Shown here: in pieces, positions 224-16,482 of the stretch
Position numbering within the stretch: the stretch's first letter is position 1
Layout of the letters: each line of letters starts with the position of its first letter
Translations under genes and position numbers: made by a program
Source: Candidatus Cryptoclostridium obscurum
GTDB taxonomy: Bacteria; Bacillota; Dehalobacteriia; UBA7702
Assembly: GCA_904420535.1 (NCBI GenBank)
Contig: CAJFVQ010000013.1
Span: 1 to 49,849 of the forward strand
Direction: 5' to 3'
Length of the DNA stretch: 49,849 nucleotides
The notes under the pieces: generated by a model
What the model was told of the DNA's origin: nothing
The model's database searches: none
The model's input: only the letters and a program-made list of their open reading frames with translations

Positions 224-258
224 GCCCCGTCTTTGCAACAAAGACGGGGCCTTTTTTT
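224..258 (+). terminator. Rho-independent terminator
   Basis: A perfect 12-bp stem (224-235 with 239-250) with a 3-nt loop is followed by seven T on the plus strand. It would end a plus-strand transcript entering from the left. Positions 1-33 read as an open frame ending in TAA (last residues MMAEAE), possibly the tail of that upstream gene, but this is too short to support as a gene. I see no other coding signal between 34 and 223. Confidence 0.8.
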
Positions 259-385
259 GCCTTATTGGGGTGAACATGAAAGGACTCCCATTGCCCTGGG
301 ATACGGAAGCGCCCCAACCGGCAGCCGCGAGAAGGAAAGGTCGGCAGATCGCCGCGACAGATATACTTGCCCCACAACACAAAAA
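259..385. other. GC-rich non-coding stretch between two terminators
   Basis: This 127-nt stretch has no supported gene. It can fold into nested hairpins: TTGGGG at 265-270 with CCCCAA at 312-317, enclosing TCCCA at 286-290 with TGGGA at 297-301. It is markedly more GC-rich than other intergenic DNA here and lies between two strong terminators. It could be a small structured RNA or a leader for a gene outside the window. I could not match it to a cobalamin, ZTP, THF, SRP or tRNA consensus. Confidence 0.3.
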
Positions 386-435
386 GAAAGCCTCGCAACG
401 TTCTCCTACCCTGAGGAGTCTGTCGCGAGGCTTTC
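380..435 (-). terminator. Terminator after mttB
   Basis: An 11-bp stem (386-396 with 425-435) encloses a second short stem (CTCCT with AGGAG). On the minus strand it is followed by CTTTTTG, 28 bases beyond the mttB stop codon. The plus strand also has a T-rich run after the stem, so it may work in both directions. Confidence 0.8.
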
Positions 436-463
436 ATTATTTCGTTACATTACATGGATTCGC

Positions 464-1957
464 TTATCTTCTGCGAGCCAACTCTTCGTTCTTATCGGCT
501 TCCGCTTCTTCAAGCAATGCATGGAGTGCTTTTTTGGTATCTTCCGGCAACGGCATTTTAGGTTTGCCGTTTTCGATCATTTCAATCGCTCTTTCGTAAG
601 AACGTTCTACGATATCTTTACCGCCTTGAGCCATCCAACCATCGAAGTTATTTCTATCGATGATTTTTGCATCAGGCTGGGAAAGATGCTTGAAGTTCTG
701 GAAAGTATGCATATGGCTGATGAATTCGCCGCCGGGGCCGACTTCGTTGATGACGTCGACTGCCAGATGTTCGTCGTCTACGAGAACGCCTTCGCAAGTC
801 TTCAAGATCATCTTCATAAATTCGTCTTCCATAACGAGCTGTGCATAGTCCCAAGTAATACCATTTTCCAACATACCGATACCATAGATCATATTGGCAC
901 CTGCCAATGCGGGCAAGATAGCGGTCAAAGTTGCTTCATGGGCAGCTTGGGCATCAACGCATTTGCTGTCGCACTAACCGCCTGCGACCCAGCTGGGAAC
1001 TTTGTAGAATTGAGCCAATTTGGCGACAAAGGCACTGATCAAGGCCAATTCAGGGGAACCGACGCAAGAAACGGTGGTTCTGAGATCCATCATCGCAGTG
1101 GACGAACCGTAAACCATGGGAACGCCTTTTTGGAGAGCCTGACCAAGAACGAACATGCTCAAAACTTCAGCATTGTGTGTTACCATGGTAGCTGCCAAAT
1201 GAACACAAGTGGTACCACCAGCAAGGCCCATAGGATTAATCTTTACGGGGAGACCTTGCTTGATCGCAAGAATCAGGGAATCAGTAGCGCCCGCAGATTG
1301 AACCAAGGGGCTAATGGGGTCAGTGGAAGTACCGAACCAAGGTCTTTCTCTGAATTTATCTTCTCCGCCGGCAACGAGACCGCCCATCTTAATGGCATAT
1401 TTTACGTTTTGGGGGTCATGCATACCAATATATGCAGGTTTGGTGCTGTTGTTCAGGAATGCTTCTAAAACATACAACTGACCAACATGGGGATTGACTT
1501 CCGCAGGAACGATATTTCTTTCAAAGAGGATAATGGAATCCAAGTTATCAATCATGGTAACGGAATTCCAAAGGTCATCCATGTTCGGAGCTCTACGCTC
1601 TCTGGTGTAGGGGTCAATCACGTTAACTGCTTCCCCGAAATTAACAAAACCGGTTCTCCCGGATTCGCAATACCAGTCGTTTTTAGGATCTCTGGCGTAA
1701 GCGCGATAATTGGGGGGAGTGCTGTTAATTGCATCTTCTACGAGGAAAGCAGGGATTTTAACGATATGAGAATCCTCATCAACGGTACAACCGATTCCTG
1801 CAAAAATTTCTCTCGCTTCTTTACTTTCAACTTTTACACCAACATTCCAAAGTACATCCAGTGTTGCCAGATGGACTTCCCAAAGTTCATCATCGGTGAA
1901 CATATTCAACCCAAGGGAAGTCATGACATTTGCGTTTGCGCGTAAACCTCTAGCCAA
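464..1957 (-). CDS. mttB: Trimethylamine methyltransferase MttB with in-frame amber (pyrrolysine) codon
   Basis: It is predicted to transfer a methyl group from trimethylamine to a cognate corrinoid protein in the cytoplasm. Two open frames (974-1972 and 464-928) are one gene interrupted only by TAG at 976-974, codon 328. The flanks match MttB around its pyrrolysine: PSWVAGG before and the DSK, DAQ and ALAGAN blocks after. The codon position is close to that of Methanosarcina MttB (about 334), and the total of 497 residues is family length. I chose the TTG start at 1957 because GGAGG at 1970-1966 sits 8 nt upstream; an in-frame ATG at 1972 overlaps that site. A sigma-54 promoter lies upstream and a sigma-54 activator gene next to it. 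The corrinoid protein and the pylTSBCD genes are not in the window. Many bacterial MttB homologues lack pyrrolysine; this one keeps it. Confidence 0.95.
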
Positions 1958-2004
1958 AAGTAACACCTCCATAACTTAATTTGATCTTTGATGCTTTATT
2001 ATAA

Positions 2005-2020: not shown

Positions 2021-2121
2021 AAGGAAAATTCTGAAAGAAAAATCCTTTTTTTCTATTATACACCTAAAATTTATATTTTACAACAAAATTTCTCTATGCC
2101 TTTCGCAATATTTCAAAATTA

Positions 2122-2286: not shown

Positions 2287-3747
2287 TTATGAAGTTTGTT
2301 GCGTTTTATGATTGTGATTACCGCGACTGCTCCCACAATATTTCCGAATTAACCGACTGGCCTTGCTTTGACTCATTTTCAATTTCCTGGCCACTTCATA
2401 AGAACTGCCACATTGTTCATAGGCTTCGGTAATAATTTTTCGCTCCACCTCTTCCAGCGCCTCATCAAGAGAACCTTTACTCAGGAAAGGAAATATTTCC
2501 GTAACAGACTGATAACGAAGGGAATCCGGCAGATGATTGACATCAATGAGGTCTTCCGGCGCCATAACAACCAAACGCTCCAAAGTATTTTCCATTTCAC
2601 GAACATTCCCGGGCCACGGATATTTCAAGAGAACCTCCATAGCACGAGTTGATATTTGACGATGCAAATCGTATCGCTCATTGTAACGATTGATCAAATG
2701 ATGCACCAAAGGCACAATATCTTCGGTTCGCTCCCGCACCGGAGGAATCTTAATTTCAAATACATTCAAGCGATAATACAAGTCGTCACGAAACTTTTGT
2801 TTCATAACCATATCCTGGAGGTCCTTATTTGTCGCTGCTAAAATACGACAATTTACTTTCTTTTCCTTACGACCGCCCACGGAATAATATACCTTTTCTT
2901 GAAGGGCATGGAGTAACTTAGGCTGAAGATGCAAAGGAATTTCAGCAATTTCGTCAAGGAAAAGGGTCCCCTCGTTGGCCAATTCAAAAAGTCCAATCCG
3001 CCCTTTATTACTGGCCCCGGTAAAAGAGCCAGCAGAATAACCAAAAAGTTCCGATTCCATCAACTCTGCCGGAAGAGCTGCGCAGTTTACCGCGACAAAG
3101 GGACCGTCTTTTTGGGCACTATGCTTATGAATATATTTGGCGATAACACTTTTCCCTGTACCGCTTTCCCCCTGGATCAAAACAGTAGAATTAATGCCGG
3201 CGACACGACTAGCCAAAGTCATAAGATTTGTCATACTTTTGCTTTTATAGACAAATTCATTATCCATATCTTTTTTACGGAGTTCTTCCACTTCCAGCTT
3301 ATATTTCTCCAACTTCCTGCGGCTGACTTCCAACTCATGACTAATCCCTTTGGATTCCGTAATATCCCGGGCGTTTTCAATAATCATGATGATCTTACCG
3401 TCATCGCCGTAAACCGGCGTTGCCGTTGTCAATAAAGTCTTTCCAAGACACGTTTTTTGCTCCAAAGTAATGGATGTTTTTTTATCCATGGCAATCGGGC
3501 TGATCCGAGGTGTCCAATACTTTTTCGCGCTAATTTCATCGCGGGTTCGCCCAATTACATCTTCCGCGCGAGCACCATAATAGCGTTCACAAGCATTATT
3601 AACATAAATGACCTTCCCATCAGGGTCTGTCACATAGATTTCATCGTAAGAATTATCCACGATCATTTTCAGCGTTTCATAGTCCAGGGGACATTCGTTC
3701 TTCCGCTCCCGCTCATCCTCTTTGTGAAGTTTCTTATCTTTTTCCAA
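2287..3747 (-). CDS. PAS-domain sigma-54-dependent transcriptional activator
   Basis: This 486-residue regulator has a PAS domain at about 25-135 and a short coiled coil at about 137-160. An AAA+ domain follows, with Walker A GESGTGKS at 193-200, a GSFTGA loop at 240-245 (the sigma-54 contact motif, usually GAFTGA) and Walker B FLDEI near 263-267. A Fis-type helix-turn-helix lies at about 448-471. The frame is open to 3882, but a strong GGAGAGGAGG site precedes a TTG at 3747, 25 bp after the upstream PHP gene, so I chose that start. It probably senses a ligand or cofactor state through PAS and activates the -24/-12 promoter of mttB downstream. The signal is unknown. Confidence 0.92.
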   Translation of the reverse strand: MEKDKKLHKEDERERKNECPLDYETLKMIVDNSYDEIYVTDPDGKVIYVNNACERYYGARAEDVIGRTRDEISAKKYWTPRISPIAMDKKTSITLEQKTCLGKTLLTTATPVYGDDGKIIMIIENARDITESKGISHELEVSRRKLEKYKLEVEELRKKDMDNEFVYKSKSMTNLMTLASRVAGINSTVLIQGESGTGKSVIAKYIHKHSAQKDGPFVAVNCAALPAELMESELFGYSAGSFTGASNKGRIGLFELANEGTLFLDEIAEIPLHLQPKLLHALQEKVYYSVGGRKEKKVNCRILAATNKDLQDMVMKQKFRDDLYYRLNVFEIKIPPVRERTEDIVPLVHHLINRYNERYDLHRQISTRAMEVLLKYPWPGNVREMENTLERLVVMAPEDLIDVNHLPDSLRYQSVTEIFPFLSKGSLDEALEEVERKIITEAYEQCGSSYEVARKLKMSQSKASRLIRKYCGSSRGNHNHKTQQTS

Positions 3748-3772
3748 GAAAAATGCCTCCTCTCCAACGCAA

Positions 3773-4558
3773 TCAACGAAGGGGAATAAATTTACGTTTT
3801 CTAAAATATCCCAACGTAAACCCCTCTGCCATTTGCAAGGCCGTATCAAAACCATAAGCAAGATCTTTGGTATTATGGGCATCGGCGCCTACGGTAACAC
3901 GCTTACCACCGGCCTTTCGGTACATATCAAGAATCCGTTTTCCCGGCGCTGTTTCGGGAACCCCCTTCCGCAACGGTGACGTATTGATTTCGGGAACAAT
4001 TCCTTTTTCTACCAACATACCAATGATTTCTTCGATCAACTCATCTTCATGGTCAAGCCGCAACAAATAGCGTCTGGGATGATCAAAATGTCCAAGAACA
4101 TCAAAACCTCCCAGTTCTACTAGAGCTTTCAGCTCTTCATAATATCGGCGGTAGATGCGATCCACTGCAAAAGTAAAAATTGCTTTTCCTTCATTAGCGG
4201 TCCAGTGAATCCCCATGGGTAAATTAATATAGTGAATACTGGCGATAATCATATCATAATCGCCCTTTAACAATTCCTCATATTCTTTGGGATAACGATG
4301 GGCCTCGCCCACTTCAACCCCTTTTAGAATTTCTATTTGATCGCCGTACCGTTCCCGCATGGTTTCAATGGCTCGGGTGTAACGTTCTGCGTCAAAAGGA
4401 ATAGAATCGTCATAATTAGGATCATAATCCACATGATCCGTAATACAAATCCGTTCCAAACCGCCTTCGATAGCCGCAAGAATCATTTCTTCCATGGTGG
4501 AAGATGCATCGCCGGAGAACTCACTGGAATGGGAATGCAAATCACTTCGTAATGACAT
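3773..4558 (-). CDS. PHP-domain phosphoesterase (histidinol-phosphatase-like)
   Basis: A 261-residue protein with PHP-fold metal-binding motifs: LHSHS near the N terminus, ITDHVD, SIHY, GHFDHPRRY and GADAHN near the C terminus. These resemble HisK-type histidinol-phosphatases and other PHP phosphoesterases. No his genes are nearby, so the true substrate is open. The frame extends to a GTG at 4573, but that codon is part of the GTGAGG ribosome site; ATG at 4558 is the better start. It is probably co-transcribed with the sigma-54 activator 25 bp downstream, so a link to methylamine metabolism or signalling is possible but unproven. Confidence 0.8.
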   Translation of the reverse strand: MSLRSDLHSHSSEFSGDASSTMEEMILAAIEGGLERICITDHVDYDPNYDDSIPFDAERYTRAIETMRERYGDQIEILKGVEVGEAHRYPKEYEELLKGDYDMIIASIHYINLPMGIHWTANEGKAIFTFAVDRIYRRYYEELKALVELGGFDVLGHFDHPRRYLLRLDHEDELIEEIIGMLVEKGIVPEINTSPLRKGVPETAPGKRILDMYRKAGGKRVTVGADAHNTKDLAYGFDTALQMAEGFTLGYFRKRKFIPLR

Positions 4559-5455: not shown

Positions 5456-6979
5456 TTATTCGTTTAAAATTGCATAATGCATTTCCAAAGGCAGATTCTT
5501 AAGGAATAGGGAAATATGTTCCCGATCGGTTACGACCATATGATCTAAAATTTCCCGATAAAACGTTTCGTCGCAGAGTCCGCCAAAAGCAATGGCTTCT
5601 GCAGTACTCCTAAGTTGTTTCAAACGCTCCTGTGTTGCAAAGGCTTCCGACGCATTACCACAAGTTGGCAAATTTTTTTCAAATTTTCGTCGCGCTGTGC
5701 GGAATTCATCTTCGGTGATCTCTTCATTCAAATATAGCTCCAAAAGGCGTTCTTTCTTTTTTATATTCCGCTCCCTTTGGGACTCGGAAATTTTTGACTT
5801 TTGTTCCAATATCGCGGACACGACTGTAAAAAGAGCGGTAACACATCTCTTTGTATCTATGGCAAGATGTTGGAGCGTCAATGCCATGAGATGAAATGCG
5901 TCGTCATCCCGGATACTCATAGCAAAGCATCCTTTACTGTTGTTCTGATCCGGTCTGCCATTGGCCTTGGCCTCAGAACAACACCAGGATCCGTATCGGC
6001 TATGATCCTTCCTCAGTTTAAAACGCGCCACATAATTGGCGCCACAACGGCCGCATTTGATTTTACCGGAGAAACAATGACGGCTGCTGTATTTATTATG
6101 ATTTTTCTGTCTCGCAGAACGACCCTCCAAAATTTCCTTGGCCTGCTCAAAAGTGGTGCGGTCAATAATAGGCTCATGATGATCTCTTAGGATCACAAAG
6201 GCTTCTTCACCGTGATTGTATTTTTTGGCATGGGATAAATAGTCCGGAGTAATGGTCTTTTTTTGAATCAAATCGCCACAGTATTTTTCATTACGCAAGA
6301 TTCGCAAAATGACAGAATCGGACCATTTTCGTTTCCCGGTAGGCGTTTCAATTTCCCTTGCCTCCAATTCCCGTGCAATGCTGTGAGCCCCTTTCCCCTC
6401 ATGAATCAATTGAGAAAAGATAAAGCGCACAATTTCCGCACCTTTTTCATTGACAAACATTTTGCCGTTGCGAACGTCATATCCCAGCATATCGCGGCCA
6501 AAAACAATCCCTTGTTCCATACGGCGTTTCTGGCCCCATTTTACTCGTTCTGAGGTTCTACGGCTTTCCTCTTGGGCAATGGATGACATGATAGTCAGTC
6601 GGAGTTCCGCGTCAGGATCCATGGTATTGATATTATCATTGAGAAAACATACCGCCACTCCATATTTTTTCAATTCCCTCGTATAATAGATGCTGTCCAA
6701 AGTATTGCGGGCAAAACGGGAAATTTCCTTAGTGAGAATCAGCTGAAACTTTCCTTGCATTGCATCTTCAATCATTTGATGAAATGCATGGCGTTTTTTG
6801 GTACTGGTGCCGGTAATTCCCTCGTCAGCAAAAACGCGATATAGATTCCAATCTGGTTTTCCGTCAATATACTGTCGGAAAAAACGCATTTGGCTTTCCA
6901 GGGAGTTCGCTTGATCACTATGATCAGTAGAAACACGACAATAAGCGGCTACTTGTTTTTGGTGTTCCGGAAGGATCAT
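5456..6979 (-). CDS. Large serine recombinase (SpoIVCA-like) of the cotJC element
   Basis: A 507-residue site-specific recombinase predicted to excise or integrate the element by cutting at the central dinucleotide of the att sites. The N-terminal resolvase domain carries YCRVST with catalytic Ser17. A recombinase domain follows (about 165-285, with the GYDV and ILRNEKYCGD motifs), then a zinc ribbon (Cys309, Cys312, Cys333/334, Cys351), a lysine- and glutamate-rich coiled coil near 395-425 and a C-terminal tail. The ATG at 6979 overlaps the stop of the upstream small gene (ATGA), so I prefer it to the longer frame from 7030. The gene reads toward attL, 20 bp away. The closest functional analogy is SpoIVCA of the sigK skin element; sporulation-specific expression is not visible in the sequence. 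Confidence 0.93.
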   Translation of the reverse strand: MILPEHQKQVAAYCRVSTDHSDQANSLESQMRFFRQYIDGKPDWNLYRVFADEGITGTSTKKRHAFHQMIEDAMQGKFQLILTKEISRFARNTLDSIYYTRELKKYGVAVCFLNDNINTMDPDAELRLTIMSSIAQEESRRTSERVKWGQKRRMEQGIVFGRDMLGYDVRNGKMFVNEKGAEIVRFIFSQLIHEGKGAHSIARELEAREIETPTGKRKWSDSVILRILRNEKYCGDLIQKKTITPDYLSHAKKYNHGEEAFVILRDHHEPIIDRTTFEQAKEILEGRSARQKNHNKYSSRHCFSGKIKCGRCGANYVARFKLRKDHSRYGSWCCSEAKANGRPDQNNSKGCFAMSIRDDDAFHLMALTLQHLAIDTKRCVTALFTVVSAILEQKSKISESQRERNIKKKERLLELYLNEEITEDEFRTARRKFEKNLPTCGNASEAFATQERLKQLRSTAEAIAFGGLCDETFYREILDHMVVTDREHISLFLKNLPLEMHYAILNE

Positions 6980-7173
6980 AGGCTCCCCTTTGGCTTTCTC
7001 AGCCGCTTCTCTTCCAGCGCGTCCATACAAAGAGCCGTTTCCTCCGAGGTAAGGAGTCCGCGGTTAGCGCAAGCTTTCACTAAGGCAATTTGAAACGAGA
7101 AAAAGAACGTATCATGTTCTTCCATGTGGATACTCGGCATTACATCGACCAGGACAAAATTGCGATGAGACAT
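6976..7173 (-). CDS. Small protein translationally coupled to the serine recombinase
   Basis: A 65-residue protein of unknown family, starting MSHRNFVLVDVMPS with AGGAGGTG 6 nt before the ATG. The middle is hydrophobic and helical and the C terminus is basic (RLRKPKGS). Its TGA overlaps the recombinase ATG, so the two proteins are likely made together. It is the only other gene in the recombinase unit and so a candidate helper, such as a directionality factor that decides between integration and excision. That is inference from position only. Confidence 0.6.
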   Translation of the reverse strand: MSHRNFVLVDVMPSIHMEEHDTFFFSFQIALVKACANRGLLTSEETALCMDALEEKRLRKPKGSL

Positions 7174-7343: not shown

Positions 7344-9068
7344 TTATTTTACAATATCACTTCGATCCGTATACACGGTATGAAGCAGTTCGTGACATTT
7401 ATGACTGTTCGGTTTACCGAAAAATTCTCGATACACCATATGGATGATGGGATTTTCATGGGATTTTCGGATTGGCAAATTTTGGTCTGTTGCGTAAACC
7501 GCGTCCATACGTTTTGCCATCTTGCGCCAATCTTTGATGGGATTTCCTCCGCCACCGATACAGCCACCGGGACAGGCCATGATTTCAATAAAATGATACG
7601 GAGATTTTCCGGTTTTCACATCCTCCATGATTTTCCGGGCATTGCCAAGGCCGTGGGCAACGGCAACTTTGACAATGGTGTCCCCTATTTTTACTTCCGC
7701 TTCTTTGACACCTTCAAAACCACGGACTGCTTTAAAATTAATATTTTCCAGAGTTTCCTTGGTTACGATTTCGTAAACAGTGCGAAGCGCTGCTTCCATC
7801 ACACCACCGGTAGCGCCAAAGATTTCGCCGGCACCGGACCCTGTGCCAAAAGGAGCATCAAAGTTGCTTTCCGGCAATTTTGTAAAATCGATTCCCGCAT
7901 ATCGAATCATCTTTGCCAATTCCTGAACGGTAAGCACTGCGTCAATGTCCTGATACCCATCGCGCCCCAATTCTGGCCGCTTGGCCTCAAATTTTTTGGC
8001 AGTACAAGGCATAATAGAAACGCTGCAGATGTCTTGAGGACGTTTCCCCGCCTTCTCAGCGTAATATGTTTTAATCACGGCGCCAAACATTCCCTGTGGT
8101 GATTTACAGGAAGAAAGATTAGGAAGACATTCCGGATAAAAAGCTTCACAAAACTTAATCCACCCGGGACTACAGGAGGTAATCATAGGCAAGACCTCCT
8201 GAGACTCCAAACGCCCGAGAAGCTCCGTTCCCTCTTCCATAATGGTCAAGTCAGCGCTGAAGTCCGTATCAAATACTCGATCAAACCCCAAACGTTTCAT
8301 TGCCGTAACCAAACGCCCGGTACTAACAACACCAGGATCTTCTCCCAAGGCCTCAGCTAATGTAATCCGCACTGCCGGGGCAACTTGAGCCACCACTTCC
8401 TTGGGACTGTCAAGCATTTCCCAAATTACATCGCGGTCGTCATGAACGGTCAAAGCCCCAACAGGGCAAGCCTGTACACATTGGCCACAGTTAATGCAGA
8501 CTGTTTCTGCCAACTGTTTTCCAAAGGCAGGACCGACTAAGGTTTGATACCCGCGTTTCGAGCGAGACAAGGCACAGACGGTCTGCACATCGTTACAGAC
8601 GGAAAAGCAGCGATTACAATCAATACATTTTGAAACATCCCTGGTAATGGATGGAGAGGAAAAATCTTTTTCGCCATTTCCTTTGATTTCCACCGGATAA
8701 CGTACGTTATAATCGAACTGCAAATCCTGGGCAATGGCCTGCAATTCACAGGTACCGTTTTTATCACATTGCAAACAATCCTTTGAATGGTGAGCAAAAA
8801 TCAATTCCAAAATATTTTTTCTTGCCCTGCGAACCCGTTTGGAGGTAGTTTTTACCACCATGCCGTCGCTTACCGGTGTAGAACAGGCCGGGGCCAAAAC
8901 GCGTAATCCTTCTACCTCCACAACGCAAATTCGACAGTTGGCCTTTACTTTTTGATCCGGATGATAGCAGAGTGTTGGGATTTTGATACCTGCTGCCATA
9001 GCAGCATCCAGCAATGTGGCGTTGGCTTCCACTTCTACGGTTTGACCATCGATTGTCACTGTTACCAT
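7344..9068 (-). CDS. hydA: Cytoplasmic [FeFe] hydrogenase catalytic subunit HydA
   Basis: A 574-residue catalytic subunit that interconverts protons and H2 at the H-cluster. N-terminal [2Fe-2S] domain: Cys34, 45, 48, 62. His-ligated [4Fe-4S] site: His94, Cys98, 101, 107. Two ferredoxin clusters: Cys148/151/154/158 and 191/194/197/201. H-cluster motifs: L1 TSCSPGW near 297-303, L2 MPCTAKKFE near 353-361, L3 EIMACPGGCIGGGG near the C terminus. There is no signal peptide. It overlaps hydB by 7 nt in a hydC-hydB-hydA unit, the arrangement of NAD-linked trimeric hydrogenases. L1 has Cys-Ser where the exported enzyme in this window has Cys-Cys. Confidence 0.95.
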   Translation of the reverse strand: MVTVTIDGQTVEVEANATLLDAAMAAGIKIPTLCYHPDQKVKANCRICVVEVEGLRVLAPACSTPVSDGMVVKTTSKRVRRARKNILELIFAHHSKDCLQCDKNGTCELQAIAQDLQFDYNVRYPVEIKGNGEKDFSSPSITRDVSKCIDCNRCFSVCNDVQTVCALSRSKRGYQTLVGPAFGKQLAETVCINCGQCVQACPVGALTVHDDRDVIWEMLDSPKEVVAQVAPAVRITLAEALGEDPGVVSTGRLVTAMKRLGFDRVFDTDFSADLTIMEEGTELLGRLESQEVLPMITSCSPGWIKFCEAFYPECLPNLSSCKSPQGMFGAVIKTYYAEKAGKRPQDICSVSIMPCTAKKFEAKRPELGRDGYQDIDAVLTVQELAKMIRYAGIDFTKLPESNFDAPFGTGSGAGEIFGATGGVMEAALRTVYEIVTKETLENINFKAVRGFEGVKEAEVKIGDTIVKVAVAHGLGNARKIMEDVKTGKSPYHFIEIMACPGGCIGGGGNPIKDWRKMAKRMDAVYATDQNLPIRKSHENPIIHMVYREFFGKPNSHKCHELLHTVYTDRSDIVK

Positions 9069-10324
9069 AGGACGTCTCCCCCTTCCAAAATGCTGATAAA
9101 CTCTTCATTAAAGTTTTTAAGCGCTGAAAGCAAAGGAACCGGAGACATCTGCCCCAAACCACAAAGGGAAGTATCCATCATCACTTCTGCCAATTCTTCC
9201 AAATTTTCCAAGTCACACATACGCCCGACGCCGCTTTTGATTTTGCGAATCAATCGCAGCAGCTGAATAGTACCCTCTCGGCACGGCGTGCATTTGCCGC
9301 AACTTTCGTCGGCAAAAAATTCTAAAGTATTTTCCACAATATCGAGGATATCGTGACTATCATTAATGACCATAACGCCGCCGGCACCCCAAGAAACTCC
9401 ATGGGGACCGATCCTGTCAAGCTCCATGGCAATATCAATTTGAGAGGCACTGATAATAGGTCCGCTGCCGCCGCCTAACTGTACGGCAAGAAGTTCCCCG
9501 CCGCAGACGCCATCGCCAACGTCATAAATCAAATCTCGCAAAGAAATCCCCATGGGAAATTCAAAAATACCGCGACGGTTCAAATTGCCGCAAAGCGTAA
9601 AAAGTTTTGTTCCCGGCGAATCCTCGGCACCAATGGAGCGGAACCATTGCGCTCCTTCTTTTAAGATCACGGAAATGTTTGCCAGCGTCTCCACATTATT
9701 GATCACCGTGGGGCAATCATACAATCCACAAACACCGGGATACGGCGGCCGAAACCGAGATTCTCCCCGTTTTCCCTCAATGGACTCAATCAGCGCCGTT
9801 TCTTCCCCGCAGACATAAGCTCCGCCGCCGGAGACCAAAGCGATCTCGAAATCCACACCGCTACCTAAAATATTTTTTCCCAAATATCCTGCCTGACGCG
9901 CATTTTCCATGGCTTGGCGCAACACGGGAAACAGATAGGGATACTCCGCTCGCAGATAAATGAATCCTTGACTGGCACCGACAGCGTAGCCGGCAATAAC
10001 CATACTTTCGATCAGGCTCAGCGGGTCCCCACGCATTAAAATGCGATCTTTATTGGTAGCAGGTTCCCCTTCGTCAGCATTGCAAATAATAAATTTCTGC
10101 TTTGCCAGCATATCGCGGACGGTACGCCATTTAAGCCCCACGGGAAAACCGGCACCGCCGCGGCCGAGTAACCCCGAGGCAATGATAACATCTATCACCT
10201 CTTGGGCTGGCATGGACAGGGCATTTTCCAACCCCTGGAACCCTCCGTTTGCCCGAAAATCTTCCACAGAAACGGGATCCATATTGCCGACATTGCGCAA
10301 AAGGATTCGGGTTTCCTCCATCAT
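9062..10324 (-). CDS. hydB: Hydrogenase NuoF-like subunit HydB (short form)
   Basis: A 420-residue flavoprotein of the NuoF family that links NAD(H) to the hydrogenase. Visible motifs are GRGGAGFP near residue 54 (NADH/FMN site), CNADEGEP, the SGGGAYVCGEETAL block and a [4Fe-4S] site ESCGKCTPCREG with a more distal cysteine. Classical HydB of trimeric bifurcating hydrogenases is about 540-625 residues, with an N-terminal thioredoxin-like domain and a C-terminal 2[4Fe-4S] domain. Both are absent here, so ferredoxin-dependent bifurcation is uncertain and simple NADH linkage is possible. It overlaps hydC and hydA, so a three-gene unit is clear. Confidence 0.9.
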   Translation of the reverse strand: MMEETRILLRNVGNMDPVSVEDFRANGGFQGLENALSMPAQEVIDVIIASGLLGRGGAGFPVGLKWRTVRDMLAKQKFIICNADEGEPATNKDRILMRGDPLSLIESMVIAGYAVGASQGFIYLRAEYPYLFPVLRQAMENARQAGYLGKNILGSGVDFEIALVSGGGAYVCGEETALIESIEGKRGESRFRPPYPGVCGLYDCPTVINNVETLANISVILKEGAQWFRSIGAEDSPGTKLFTLCGNLNRRGIFEFPMGISLRDLIYDVGDGVCGGELLAVQLGGGSGPIISASQIDIAMELDRIGPHGVSWGAGGVMVINDSHDILDIVENTLEFFADESCGKCTPCREGTIQLLRLIRKIKSGVGRMCDLENLEELAEVMMDTSLCGLGQMSPVPLLSALKNFNEEFISILEGGDVLW

Positions 10325-14124: not shown

Positions 14125-14917
14125 TTTCGTTTCCTCCTTTCTCTTTCATCTTTTCCTCTTCCAGACGAAGACGGCGTTTTGTATACAGCCCCAGTGCACC
14201 AAAGAGAACGGCGCCGCCGGCAAAAATCCCCGGTTTCCATTTGGAATAGTCGTGAAGTGTCGAAGGAATGCTCTTTGTCGGAACGTTGGTGGGGAAGCCC
14301 AACTGTTCAAAAGGCACATCGGAGATATAGAGCCAACGAGTACCTCCACCTTGGGTTTCTCCATAGACCTCATTCACATAACGAGAGTCATTGGCGATGG
14401 TTTCCTTGGCTTGAGCCAATAATTCATCCCGATCCCCAAAGGTCATAGCGCCGGTGGGGCAAACAGAGGTGCAAGCTGGTTTTTCATTCCCGGCCAATTT
14501 ATCGGCACATAATTGACATTTCATAATCGAAGGGAACACCTTATCCCATTCGTATTTGGGAATATCATAGGGACACGCAATCATACAGTAACGGCAACCA
14601 ACGCACTTTTTGGGATCGTAAACCACCGCGCCGGTACTTTCCACCACAATGGCTTTGGCAAAACATACCGCCACACAAGATGGATCTAGGCAATGCATAC
14701 ATTGATGTTTGGCAAAACGCAACACATCTTCCTTATCGGTGACGGTGGTAGCGTCATGATACTGAATTGTGGTCCAGGTTTGGGCGCCCAGCTTAGCGTC
14801 GTAACCGTGGGCATTCCCCCCTTCGTATTCCAAATCATTCCACAATTTACATGCCACAGTACAGCTTCCACAGCCAACACATTTAGTCACATCAAATAAA
14901 ACGCCACTGTTTTGCAT
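14117..14917 (-). CDS. HybA-like four-cluster ferredoxin with C-terminal membrane anchor
   Basis: A 266-residue electron-transfer subunit. Cysteine groups for four [4Fe-4S] clusters are visible: CVGCGSCTVAC near the N terminus, CMHCLDPSCVAVC, CVGCRYCMIACPYDIP, and CQLCADK with CTSVCPTGA. Near the C terminus lies one membrane helix (GIFAGGAVLFGALGLY) followed by a basic tail, as in HybA and FdnH. It has no Tat signal of its own, so export would be as a complex with the hydrogenase. Its start overlaps the hydrogenase stop by 1 nt and its end overlaps the NrfD-type gene. Confidence 0.92.
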   Translation of the reverse strand: MQNSGVLFDVTKCVGCGSCTVACKLWNDLEYEGGNAHGYDAKLGAQTWTTIQYHDATTVTDKEDVLRFAKHQCMHCLDPSCVAVCFAKAIVVESTGAVVYDPKKCVGCRYCMIACPYDIPKYEWDKVFPSIMKCQLCADKLAGNEKPACTSVCPTGAMTFGDRDELLAQAKETIANDSRYVNEVYGETQGGGTRWLYISDVPFEQLGFPTNVPTKSIPSTLHDYSKWKPGIFAGGAVLFGALGLYTKRRLRLEEEKMKEKGGNENV

Positions 14918-16482
14918 CAGGACTCACCTCCTTCTTTCGGGGTAAGCGCATCGCCACGACTGCTATAATGGGTATGGAGTAGCTCATGGGCGATTTCACT
15001 ACAGGGTTCCCCAAGGAAGTCATTGTAAGCAGTTTGGATTTCCGTGTTCTCATGGCTGGTGCGTTTATTCTCGGCCATGGTACTGTCACGGTGATAGAGA
15101 GAGTCAATCCGTTTTTCCCGCATGGAATTGTCGGGAGGCACTGTTGTTTTGGGCTGACCGCCGCCGGCAATACACCCGCCGGGGCAAGACATGATTTCAA
15201 TAAAATGATAATCAGCCTCTCCTGCCCGCACTCTATCGCAAAGGGTACGAGCCGCAGACAAACTGCTGGCCACAGCCACACGTACCTCCCCAAAACCGGG
15301 GACATTCACCGAAGCCTCTTTGATAGAATCAAGGCCGCGAACCGGCTGTAAATTCAGAAGTCCCGATGGGGGTTCCTCTCCGGCCACTACATAGTAAGCA
15401 GTTCGAATGGCGGCTTCCATGACACCGCCGGTATTGCCAAAAATAACGCCAGCACCGGAACCTTCCCCCATAATGGGATCAAAGGATTCCTCTGGCAAAG
15501 AGGCAAAATCAATATTTTCCTCTTTGATAAAGTTTGCCAATTCCCTGGTACTGAGGACAAAATCAATGTCCCGCATATCGGGGAGATTATGATATTCTCC
15601 CGCCGCGTTGAATTCCGGACGGTTGGCCTCAAATTTTTTCGCAGTGCATGGCATAATGGCGACGCTAACAATCTTATTGGGATCGATCTTCTTCCTCGCC
15701 GCATAATAAGTTTTCGTCATAGCGCCTTGCATCTGCATGGGGGATTTGGCTGTTGATAAATGATCCATAAGATCGGGATAATAGTATTCCAAAAACTTCA
15801 CCCAACCGGGGCAACAAGACGTAAACTGAGGAAGTATCCCGTCTCCGGTAAGGCGTTGAACCAATTCCGTGCCTTCTTCCATGATAGTCAAATCGGCGCC
15901 GAAATTCGTATCCAAGACCGCGTCAAACCCCAAACGGCGCAGGGCGGCAACCATTTGCCCTTCCACCCAAGTCCCGGCGTCGTCACCGAATTCTTCCCCC
16001 AAACCAACGCGAATGGAAGGTGCTGTTTGCACCACCACAAATTTATTGGGATCATTGATGGCATCCCGCACCTGGTCGATTTGGCTTCGTTCCGTAATCG
16101 CGCCGCTAGGACAGTAGAGAGCGCACTGACCGCAATGAATACAGATAAACTCATCCTTAATTGGTAGTTCATAATAATCAAAAACCGATTGCACACGATC
16201 GCAGGCTTCCAAGCACTGACCGCAAAGAATACATTTTGTATCATCCCGAACAACAGCAATATTGTCGGGATCCAAGGGGACACGCCCCTTGACCTGGGCA
16301 GTCCAATTCCCTTCACTGCGATACTGCGTCGGCAACCAGCCGCCGTCGCCGCCGATCTCCTCAACAACGCCGCAACCGGATAAAGTCGCCATCGTACCTG
16401 CCACTGCCGCTACCCCCAGAAATTGGCGGCGTGTAATCTTTGGTACGTTTTTTTCTTTGTCGTTATGCTGATGCTCTTTCAC
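14917..16482 (-). CDS. Tat-exported [FeFe] hydrogenase, probable lipoprotein
   Basis: A 521-residue [FeFe] hydrogenase with a twin-arginine signal: TRRQFLG at residues 17-23, a hydrophobic stretch, then LSGC at 34-37, a good lipobox. The mature enzyme would face outside and could be lipid-anchored at Cys37. Two ferredoxin clusters follow (CILCGQCLEAC and CIHCGQCALYC); there is no [2Fe-2S] domain. H-cluster motifs are L1 TSCCPGW, L2 MPCTAKKFE and L3 EIMSCPGGCIAGGG. The start is GTG with AAGGAGG about 10 nt upstream. [FeFe] enzymes are usually cytoplasmic in Clostridia; Tat-linked ones with HybA/NrfD partners are a minority type. The HydE/F/G products encoded nearby should mature the enzyme before export. 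Confidence 0.93.
   Translation of the reverse strand: MKEHQHNDKEKNVPKITRRQFLGVAAVAGTMATLSGCGVVEEIGGDGGWLPTQYRSEGNWTAQVKGRVPLDPDNIAVVRDDTKCILCGQCLEACDRVQSVFDYYELPIKDEFICIHCGQCALYCPSGAITERSQIDQVRDAINDPNKFVVVQTAPSIRVGLGEEFGDDAGTWVEGQMVAALRRLGFDAVLDTNFGADLTIMEEGTELVQRLTGDGILPQFTSCCPGWVKFLEYYYPDLMDHLSTAKSPMQMQGAMTKTYYAARKKIDPNKIVSVAIMPCTAKKFEANRPEFNAAGEYHNLPDMRDIDFVLSTRELANFIKEENIDFASLPEESFDPIMGEGSGAGVIFGNTGGVMEAAIRTAYYVVAGEEPPSGLLNLQPVRGLDSIKEASVNVPGFGEVRVAVASSLSAARTLCDRVRAGEADYHFIEIMSCPGGCIAGGGQPKTTVPPDNSMREKRIDSLYHRDSTMAENKRTSHENTEIQTAYNDFLGEPCSEIAHELLHTHYSSRGDALTPKEGGES

Follow-up and report, generated by a model that had tools for sequence, protein, structure and literature searches.

The mttB gene of Candidatus Cryptoclostridium obscurum carries one TAG codon in frame. 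With a probability of about 0.96 on sequence evidence, its product is an MttB-type (trimethylamine) methyltransferase that contains pyrrolysine and is made at full length by decoding UAG as pyrrolysine. The gene (positions 464–1957, minus strand) lies in a stretch of 49,849 nucleotides, contig CAJFVQ010000013.1, which was analyzed as a whole and is called the window here. The mid-gene TAG is almost certainly read as pyrrolysine, because the codon occupies a known active-site position and all components of the pyrrolysine machinery are encoded in the genome. The first-pass annotation of the window had proposed pyrrolysine in a bacterium, and this is supported by a complete pyl cassette and by a TAG at the position of the archaeal residue Pyl334. 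Bacteria with pyrrolysine were known before, and published examples include members of this class (PMC6778437, PMC9768040). The genome appears to belong to the class of 'Ca. Formimonas warabiya' DCMF and Dehalobacterium formicoaceticum, and to another family within it.

The in-frame amber codon and its surroundings

The minus-strand frame from 1972 to 464 has a single internal TAG at 976–974 ('cta' on the plus strand) and ends with TAA at 466–464. The mechanical start of this open reading frame is the ATG at 1972, which makes the TAG codon 333. The likely start of mttB is the TTG at 1957, and the TAG is then codon 328, the number first given to it. With this start and the one TAG read through, the product has about 497 residues. 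A ribosome-binding site, GGAGGTG (1964–1970, minus strand), is located 6 nt 5′ of the TTG, and the same arrangement of TTG and GGAGGTG is conserved in three homologues (L070, L071 and L078) from the family of the window's genome, f1. With the TAG read as a residue, the product scores 592 bits with TIGR02369 (trimeth_pyl, equivalog; cut-off 525). PF06253 covers residues 22–488 without a break (294 bits), and residues 12–491 align with two trimethylamine methyltransferases of known structure, 7xcm and 7xcl. Because the MttB homology (PF06253, 7xcm) runs unbroken across the TAG, the frame has neither a frameshift nor a second internal stop. This bears out the earlier description of a TAG flanked by MttB sequence as the sole lesion. 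An open frame of 411 codons runs antisense to mttB at 233–1468 (plus strand); nearly open antisense frames occur in the homologues too, and the frame is probably a composition effect.

To compare the amber position, MttB-family proteins, 34 encoded in this genome and 27 in related genomes, were aligned with 7xcl by MAFFT. There are 34 pyrrolysine rows: nine belong to this genome, 24 to its relatives and one to the archaeal 7xcl. In all 33 TAG-bearing genes the TAG falls in a single column, that of residue 334, the Pyl of 7xcl. Judged by this shared column, the placement of the TAG at 974–976 (minus strand) is not chance. The MttB of Methanosarcina barkeri (7xcl, 7xcm, 7xcn) is homologous over its whole length and has the same context as this mttB, FY.(V/L)PS.VAG.-Pyl-.D.K..D.QA.HE. 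The match to the archaeal MttB pyrrolysine in position and context, noticed at first reading, is thereby confirmed. In the tree, the pyrrolysine rows and the archaeal enzyme form one supported branch (100/99) with a single non-pyrrolysine row inside, L084. This MttB (G008:C5:11471–12940) has isoleucine at the pyrrolysine column in a genome that retains the pyl genes, which looks like a loss of pyrrolysine.

Two other origins of the TAG were considered, a sequencing error and a nonsense mutation in an mttB gene undergoing decay. Decay does occur in this genome, as one pyrrolysine-type MttB copy is found in pieces (C2:24093–25470). However, the TAG of mttB is kept in all of the seven nearest homologues (90, 88, 76, 62, 61, 61 and 60% identity), which come from four other genomes and more. 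The dN/dS values against the two nearest homologues are 0.053 and 0.074 before the TAG and 0.062 and 0.111 after it; dS is 0.8–1.5, synonymous sites are near saturation, and yet the codons after the TAG are strongly constrained. By these ratios, the stretch of about 160–165 codons 3′ of the TAG is under strong purifying selection. A terminating stop would leave no such constraint on downstream codons, which argues that the TAG does not end translation. The promoter and terminator of mttB are intact as well. Conservation of the TAG together with dN/dS makes a pseudogene or sequencing error extremely improbable and rules it out for practical purposes.

The promoter is of the sigma-70 type, TTGTAA-17-TATAAT (2055–2083, minus strand; 10/12 matches), and the 17-nt spacer and exact TATAAT are found in L070, L071 and L078. 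An intrinsic terminator 3′ of mttB at about 380–435 (minus strand), AAAGCCTCGC...GCGAGGCTTT followed by a T-run, gives a strong hairpin on folding. The claim of a separate promoter and terminator for this gene therefore holds, with promoter counterparts in three homologues and the downstream hairpin in seven of seven. A sigma-54-like site, TTGGTATGAATCTTGCA at 2021–2005, matches the consensus and has a sigma-54 activator gene upstream. It was rejected as the main promoter; about one third of shuffled windows match equally well, and the site is missing upstream of the three homologues, where the sigma-70-type promoter is common to all. The gene upstream of mttB encodes a PrdR-like PAS/sigma-54-activator regulator (2287–3882, minus strand) with 228 bits for PF00158; its score with NF041552 is 423 bits, below the cut-off of 795.

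A close comparison is with the pyrrolysine-type MttB of DCMF and D. formicoaceticum, which is about 61% identical and has TAG at the same codon. These organisms also resemble the window's genome in a split PylSc/PylSn synthetase and in a related regulator (57–58% identical) that adjoins mttB. In both of them mttB is directly 3′ of the pyl cassette, whereas in the window's genome the two are on different contigs and mttB is flanked by a promoter and a terminator of its own. The DCMF-type mttB/pyl neighborhood has been split here. The contig ends 463 bp downstream of mttB. Near mttB and the regulator, at 5456–7030 (minus strand), is a gene for a large XisF/Ccr-type serine recombinase, which scores below the cut-offs of those families and could be the mark of a mobile element.

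Pyrrolysine machinery and probable decoding of UAG

The genome is a draft of 101 contigs and 2.1 Mb, 99% complete and 0.6% contaminated. A search for pylT, pylS, pylB, pylC and pylD, proposed in the first-pass annotation, found pylT, pylSc, pylSn, pylB, pylC and pylD. They are located on the minus strand of contig C90 in the order pylSc, pylD, tRNA-Pyl(CUA), pylB, pylC, methyl-tetrahydrofolate:corrinoid methyltransferase and pylSn. All five proteins score above the curated cut-offs (PylSc 345, PylD 192, PylB 479, PylC 374 and PylSn 135 bits). The tRNA-Pyl has the anticodon CUA, a 6-bp anticodon stem and a 3-nt variable loop. The methyltransferase gene (L010:15281–16159) fills the gap between pylC and pylSn within the cassette, and likewise in three other genomes of the family, G001, G002 and G003. 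The cassette arrangement is identical in these three genomes, which argues against a binning error of C90.

In the proposed pathway, PylB, PylC and PylD would make pyrrolysine from two lysines, and PylSc and PylSn would charge tRNA-Pyl. At UAG 328 the charged tRNA would then compete with release factor 1, with no dedicated mRNA element, to give the protein of about 497 residues. The genome also encodes release factor 1, and pyrrolysine insertion at UAG must therefore compete with termination. Since real genes still end in TAG as well, some truncated MttB product is expected. Full reassignment of TAG to a sense codon is rejected on the same two grounds.

Alternatively, a standard amino acid might be inserted at the UAG, through either an ordinary suppressor tRNA or near-cognate read-through. 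However, the CUA-anticodon tRNA that was found is tRNA-Pyl, accompanied by its synthetase and the biosynthesis genes, and TAG is confined to the catalytic pyrrolysine column, where non-pyrrolysine homologues have L, V, A, S, C, M, T, N or I. Insertion of a standard residue is thus very improbable compared with pyrrolysine.

A match to Rfam RF02510 (PYLIS_3) downstream of the UAG (877–976, minus strand) scores 66.5 bits with a gathering threshold of 38; it is a sequence match only. Covariation and pairing of the PYLIS_3 pairs in 19 homologues were no better than in shuffles. Folding 3′ of the UAG in 30 sequences showed no excess over random synonymous recodings (mean MFE z +0.17, s.e. 0.15). 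The match was rejected as evidence of a recoding element on both counts. These null results agree with a statement in one review (PMC8211752) that a cis element is not required for pyrrolysine decoding.

Amber codons as stops

TAG stops were counted in sampled stretches using heuristic coding-score gene calls, and every TAG followed by coding sequence was excluded. The loci sampled in this genome (G000) were the window, L010–L029, L057–L064 and L158–L163. TAG is the stop codon of 15/327 genes (4.6%) in this genome, 5/132 in G001 and 2/74 in G002 and G003 together, all members of family f1. The counts are 38/153 in DCMF, 22/141 in D. formicoaceticum and 23/86 in G004 and G008 together, while four classmates that lack pyrrolysine genes give 32/192. 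The share of TAG terminators is thus about 4% in f1 versus 17–22% in pyrrolysine-bearing and pyrrolysine-lacking classmates of other families (f1 versus f2, Fisher P = 1e-16). The stretches sampled here have 44.6% G+C, a value inside the range spanned by the f2 and pyrrolysine-lacking samples. DCMF and D. formicoaceticum use TAG freely as a stop, but f1 does not.

Bacteria are described in a passage of PMC3941956 as handling pyrrolysine by regulation rather than by codon avoidance. Family f1 looks like an exception to this, as a correlation in one lineage that is based on heuristic gene calls. A more tentative proposal is that the entire genome of f1 is adapted to pyrrolysine through amber avoidance, as in methanogenic archaea, and that its nine pyrrolysine-type MttB may include non-trimethylamine enzymes; we regard this as possible, although the odds are against it. 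If f1 does avoid amber, its pyrrolysine machinery would be expressed more constitutively than with regulation alone. The low-amber f1 and its amber-rich pyrrolysine-bearing sister families offer a natural comparison of UAG as stop and UAG as pyrrolysine without a cis signal. With this finding, one more family of anaerobic bacteria joins the few known organisms that naturally use the 22nd amino acid.

Methyltransferase paralogues and methyl metabolism

The genome has 42 MTTB matches, fragments counted. Nine full-length MttB genes bear a TAG (this mttB and eight others), and one more TAG is in a fragment of a decayed copy. The decayed copy (in L013) retains its TAG and adjoins an intact pyrrolysine-type MttB at C2:22621–24030. 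MtmB and MtbB have one in-frame TAG each. The 2.1 Mb genome therefore has at least 11 pyrrolysine genes. Standard annotation would truncate each at the UAG and so hide the methylamine metabolism of the organism. In about 525 kb sampled, TAGs with strongly coding sequence beyond them occur only in the nine MttB, MtbB and MtmB, and no other pyrrolysine proteins were found. Two further TAG-containing frames in the sampled genome have no Pfam match. One paralogue (L064:11136–12620, contig C41) has two ambers, one inside at the pyrrolysine position and one as terminator, and a TGA follows 31 codons later. For comparison, DCMF has 82 mttB genes and 23 pyrrolysine methyltransferases (PMC6778437), and seven pyrrolysine-type MttB were detected in its proteome (PMC9768040).

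The substrate of this pyrrolysine-type MttB may be another methylated amine and not trimethylamine. The nine full-length paralogues fall on separate tree branches in a genome of 2.1 Mb, and the TIGR02369 score of this mttB (592 bits) is below those of the copies on C41 (707), C17 (683), C28 (677) and C56 (671). New roles for pyrrolysine-type MttB in DCMF have also been raised (PMC9768040). On the other side, all nine exceed the trimethylamine equivalog cut-off, and the homologues in DCMF and D. formicoaceticum adjoin the pyl cassette, as expected of a core trimethylamine enzyme. A different substrate is therefore unlikely, roughly one chance in a few, and trimethylamine is the candidate substrate.

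By analogy with the archaeal enzyme, the active-site pyrrolysine would activate the methyl group of the methylamine for transfer to a Co(I) corrinoid protein, which RACo/RamA-type activators would keep reduced. M. barkeri is an archaeal methanogen with a single-chain PylS, and the analogy to the bacterial pathway holds only at the level of partners. Nine TIGR02370-type corrinoid protein matches and three RACo-type activators were found in the genome. The corrinoid protein that the first-pass annotation had suggested looking for thus has homologues here, but only one of the nine is over the curated cut-off; it adjoins mtmB, and no corrinoid gene lies beside this mttB, where the contig end is near. 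One candidate corrinoid protein is encoded at C17:41806–42396. The trimethylamine pathway of Bilophila wadsworthia (PMC7593587) is similar in its bacterial split synthetase and in a pyrrolysine methyltransferase apart from the pyl genes. However, B. wadsworthia is a Deltaproteobacterium with no MtbB and a non-pyrrolysine MtmB, whereas MtbB and MtmB both have TAG here.

From the corrinoid protein, a methyl-tetrahydrofolate methyltransferase, one of which is in the pyl cassette, may feed the methyl group into the Wood-Ljungdahl pathway. Formate--THF ligase, an enzyme of that pathway, is encoded in the window as part of an acetogen-like set that also includes a methylene-THF-reductase-like protein, an NADH-dependent [FeFe] hydrogenase, HydE, HydF and HydG, F1F0 ATP synthase and SpoIID. 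These genes are bacterial, and they are a plausible sink for methyl groups. Two group-A [FeFe] hydrogenase genes are present at 7344–10324 and 14917–16482 (minus strand), in the same window as HydE, HydF and HydG, and one of the two hydrogenases is an NADH-dependent enzyme of type A6 that has a NuoF-like partner.
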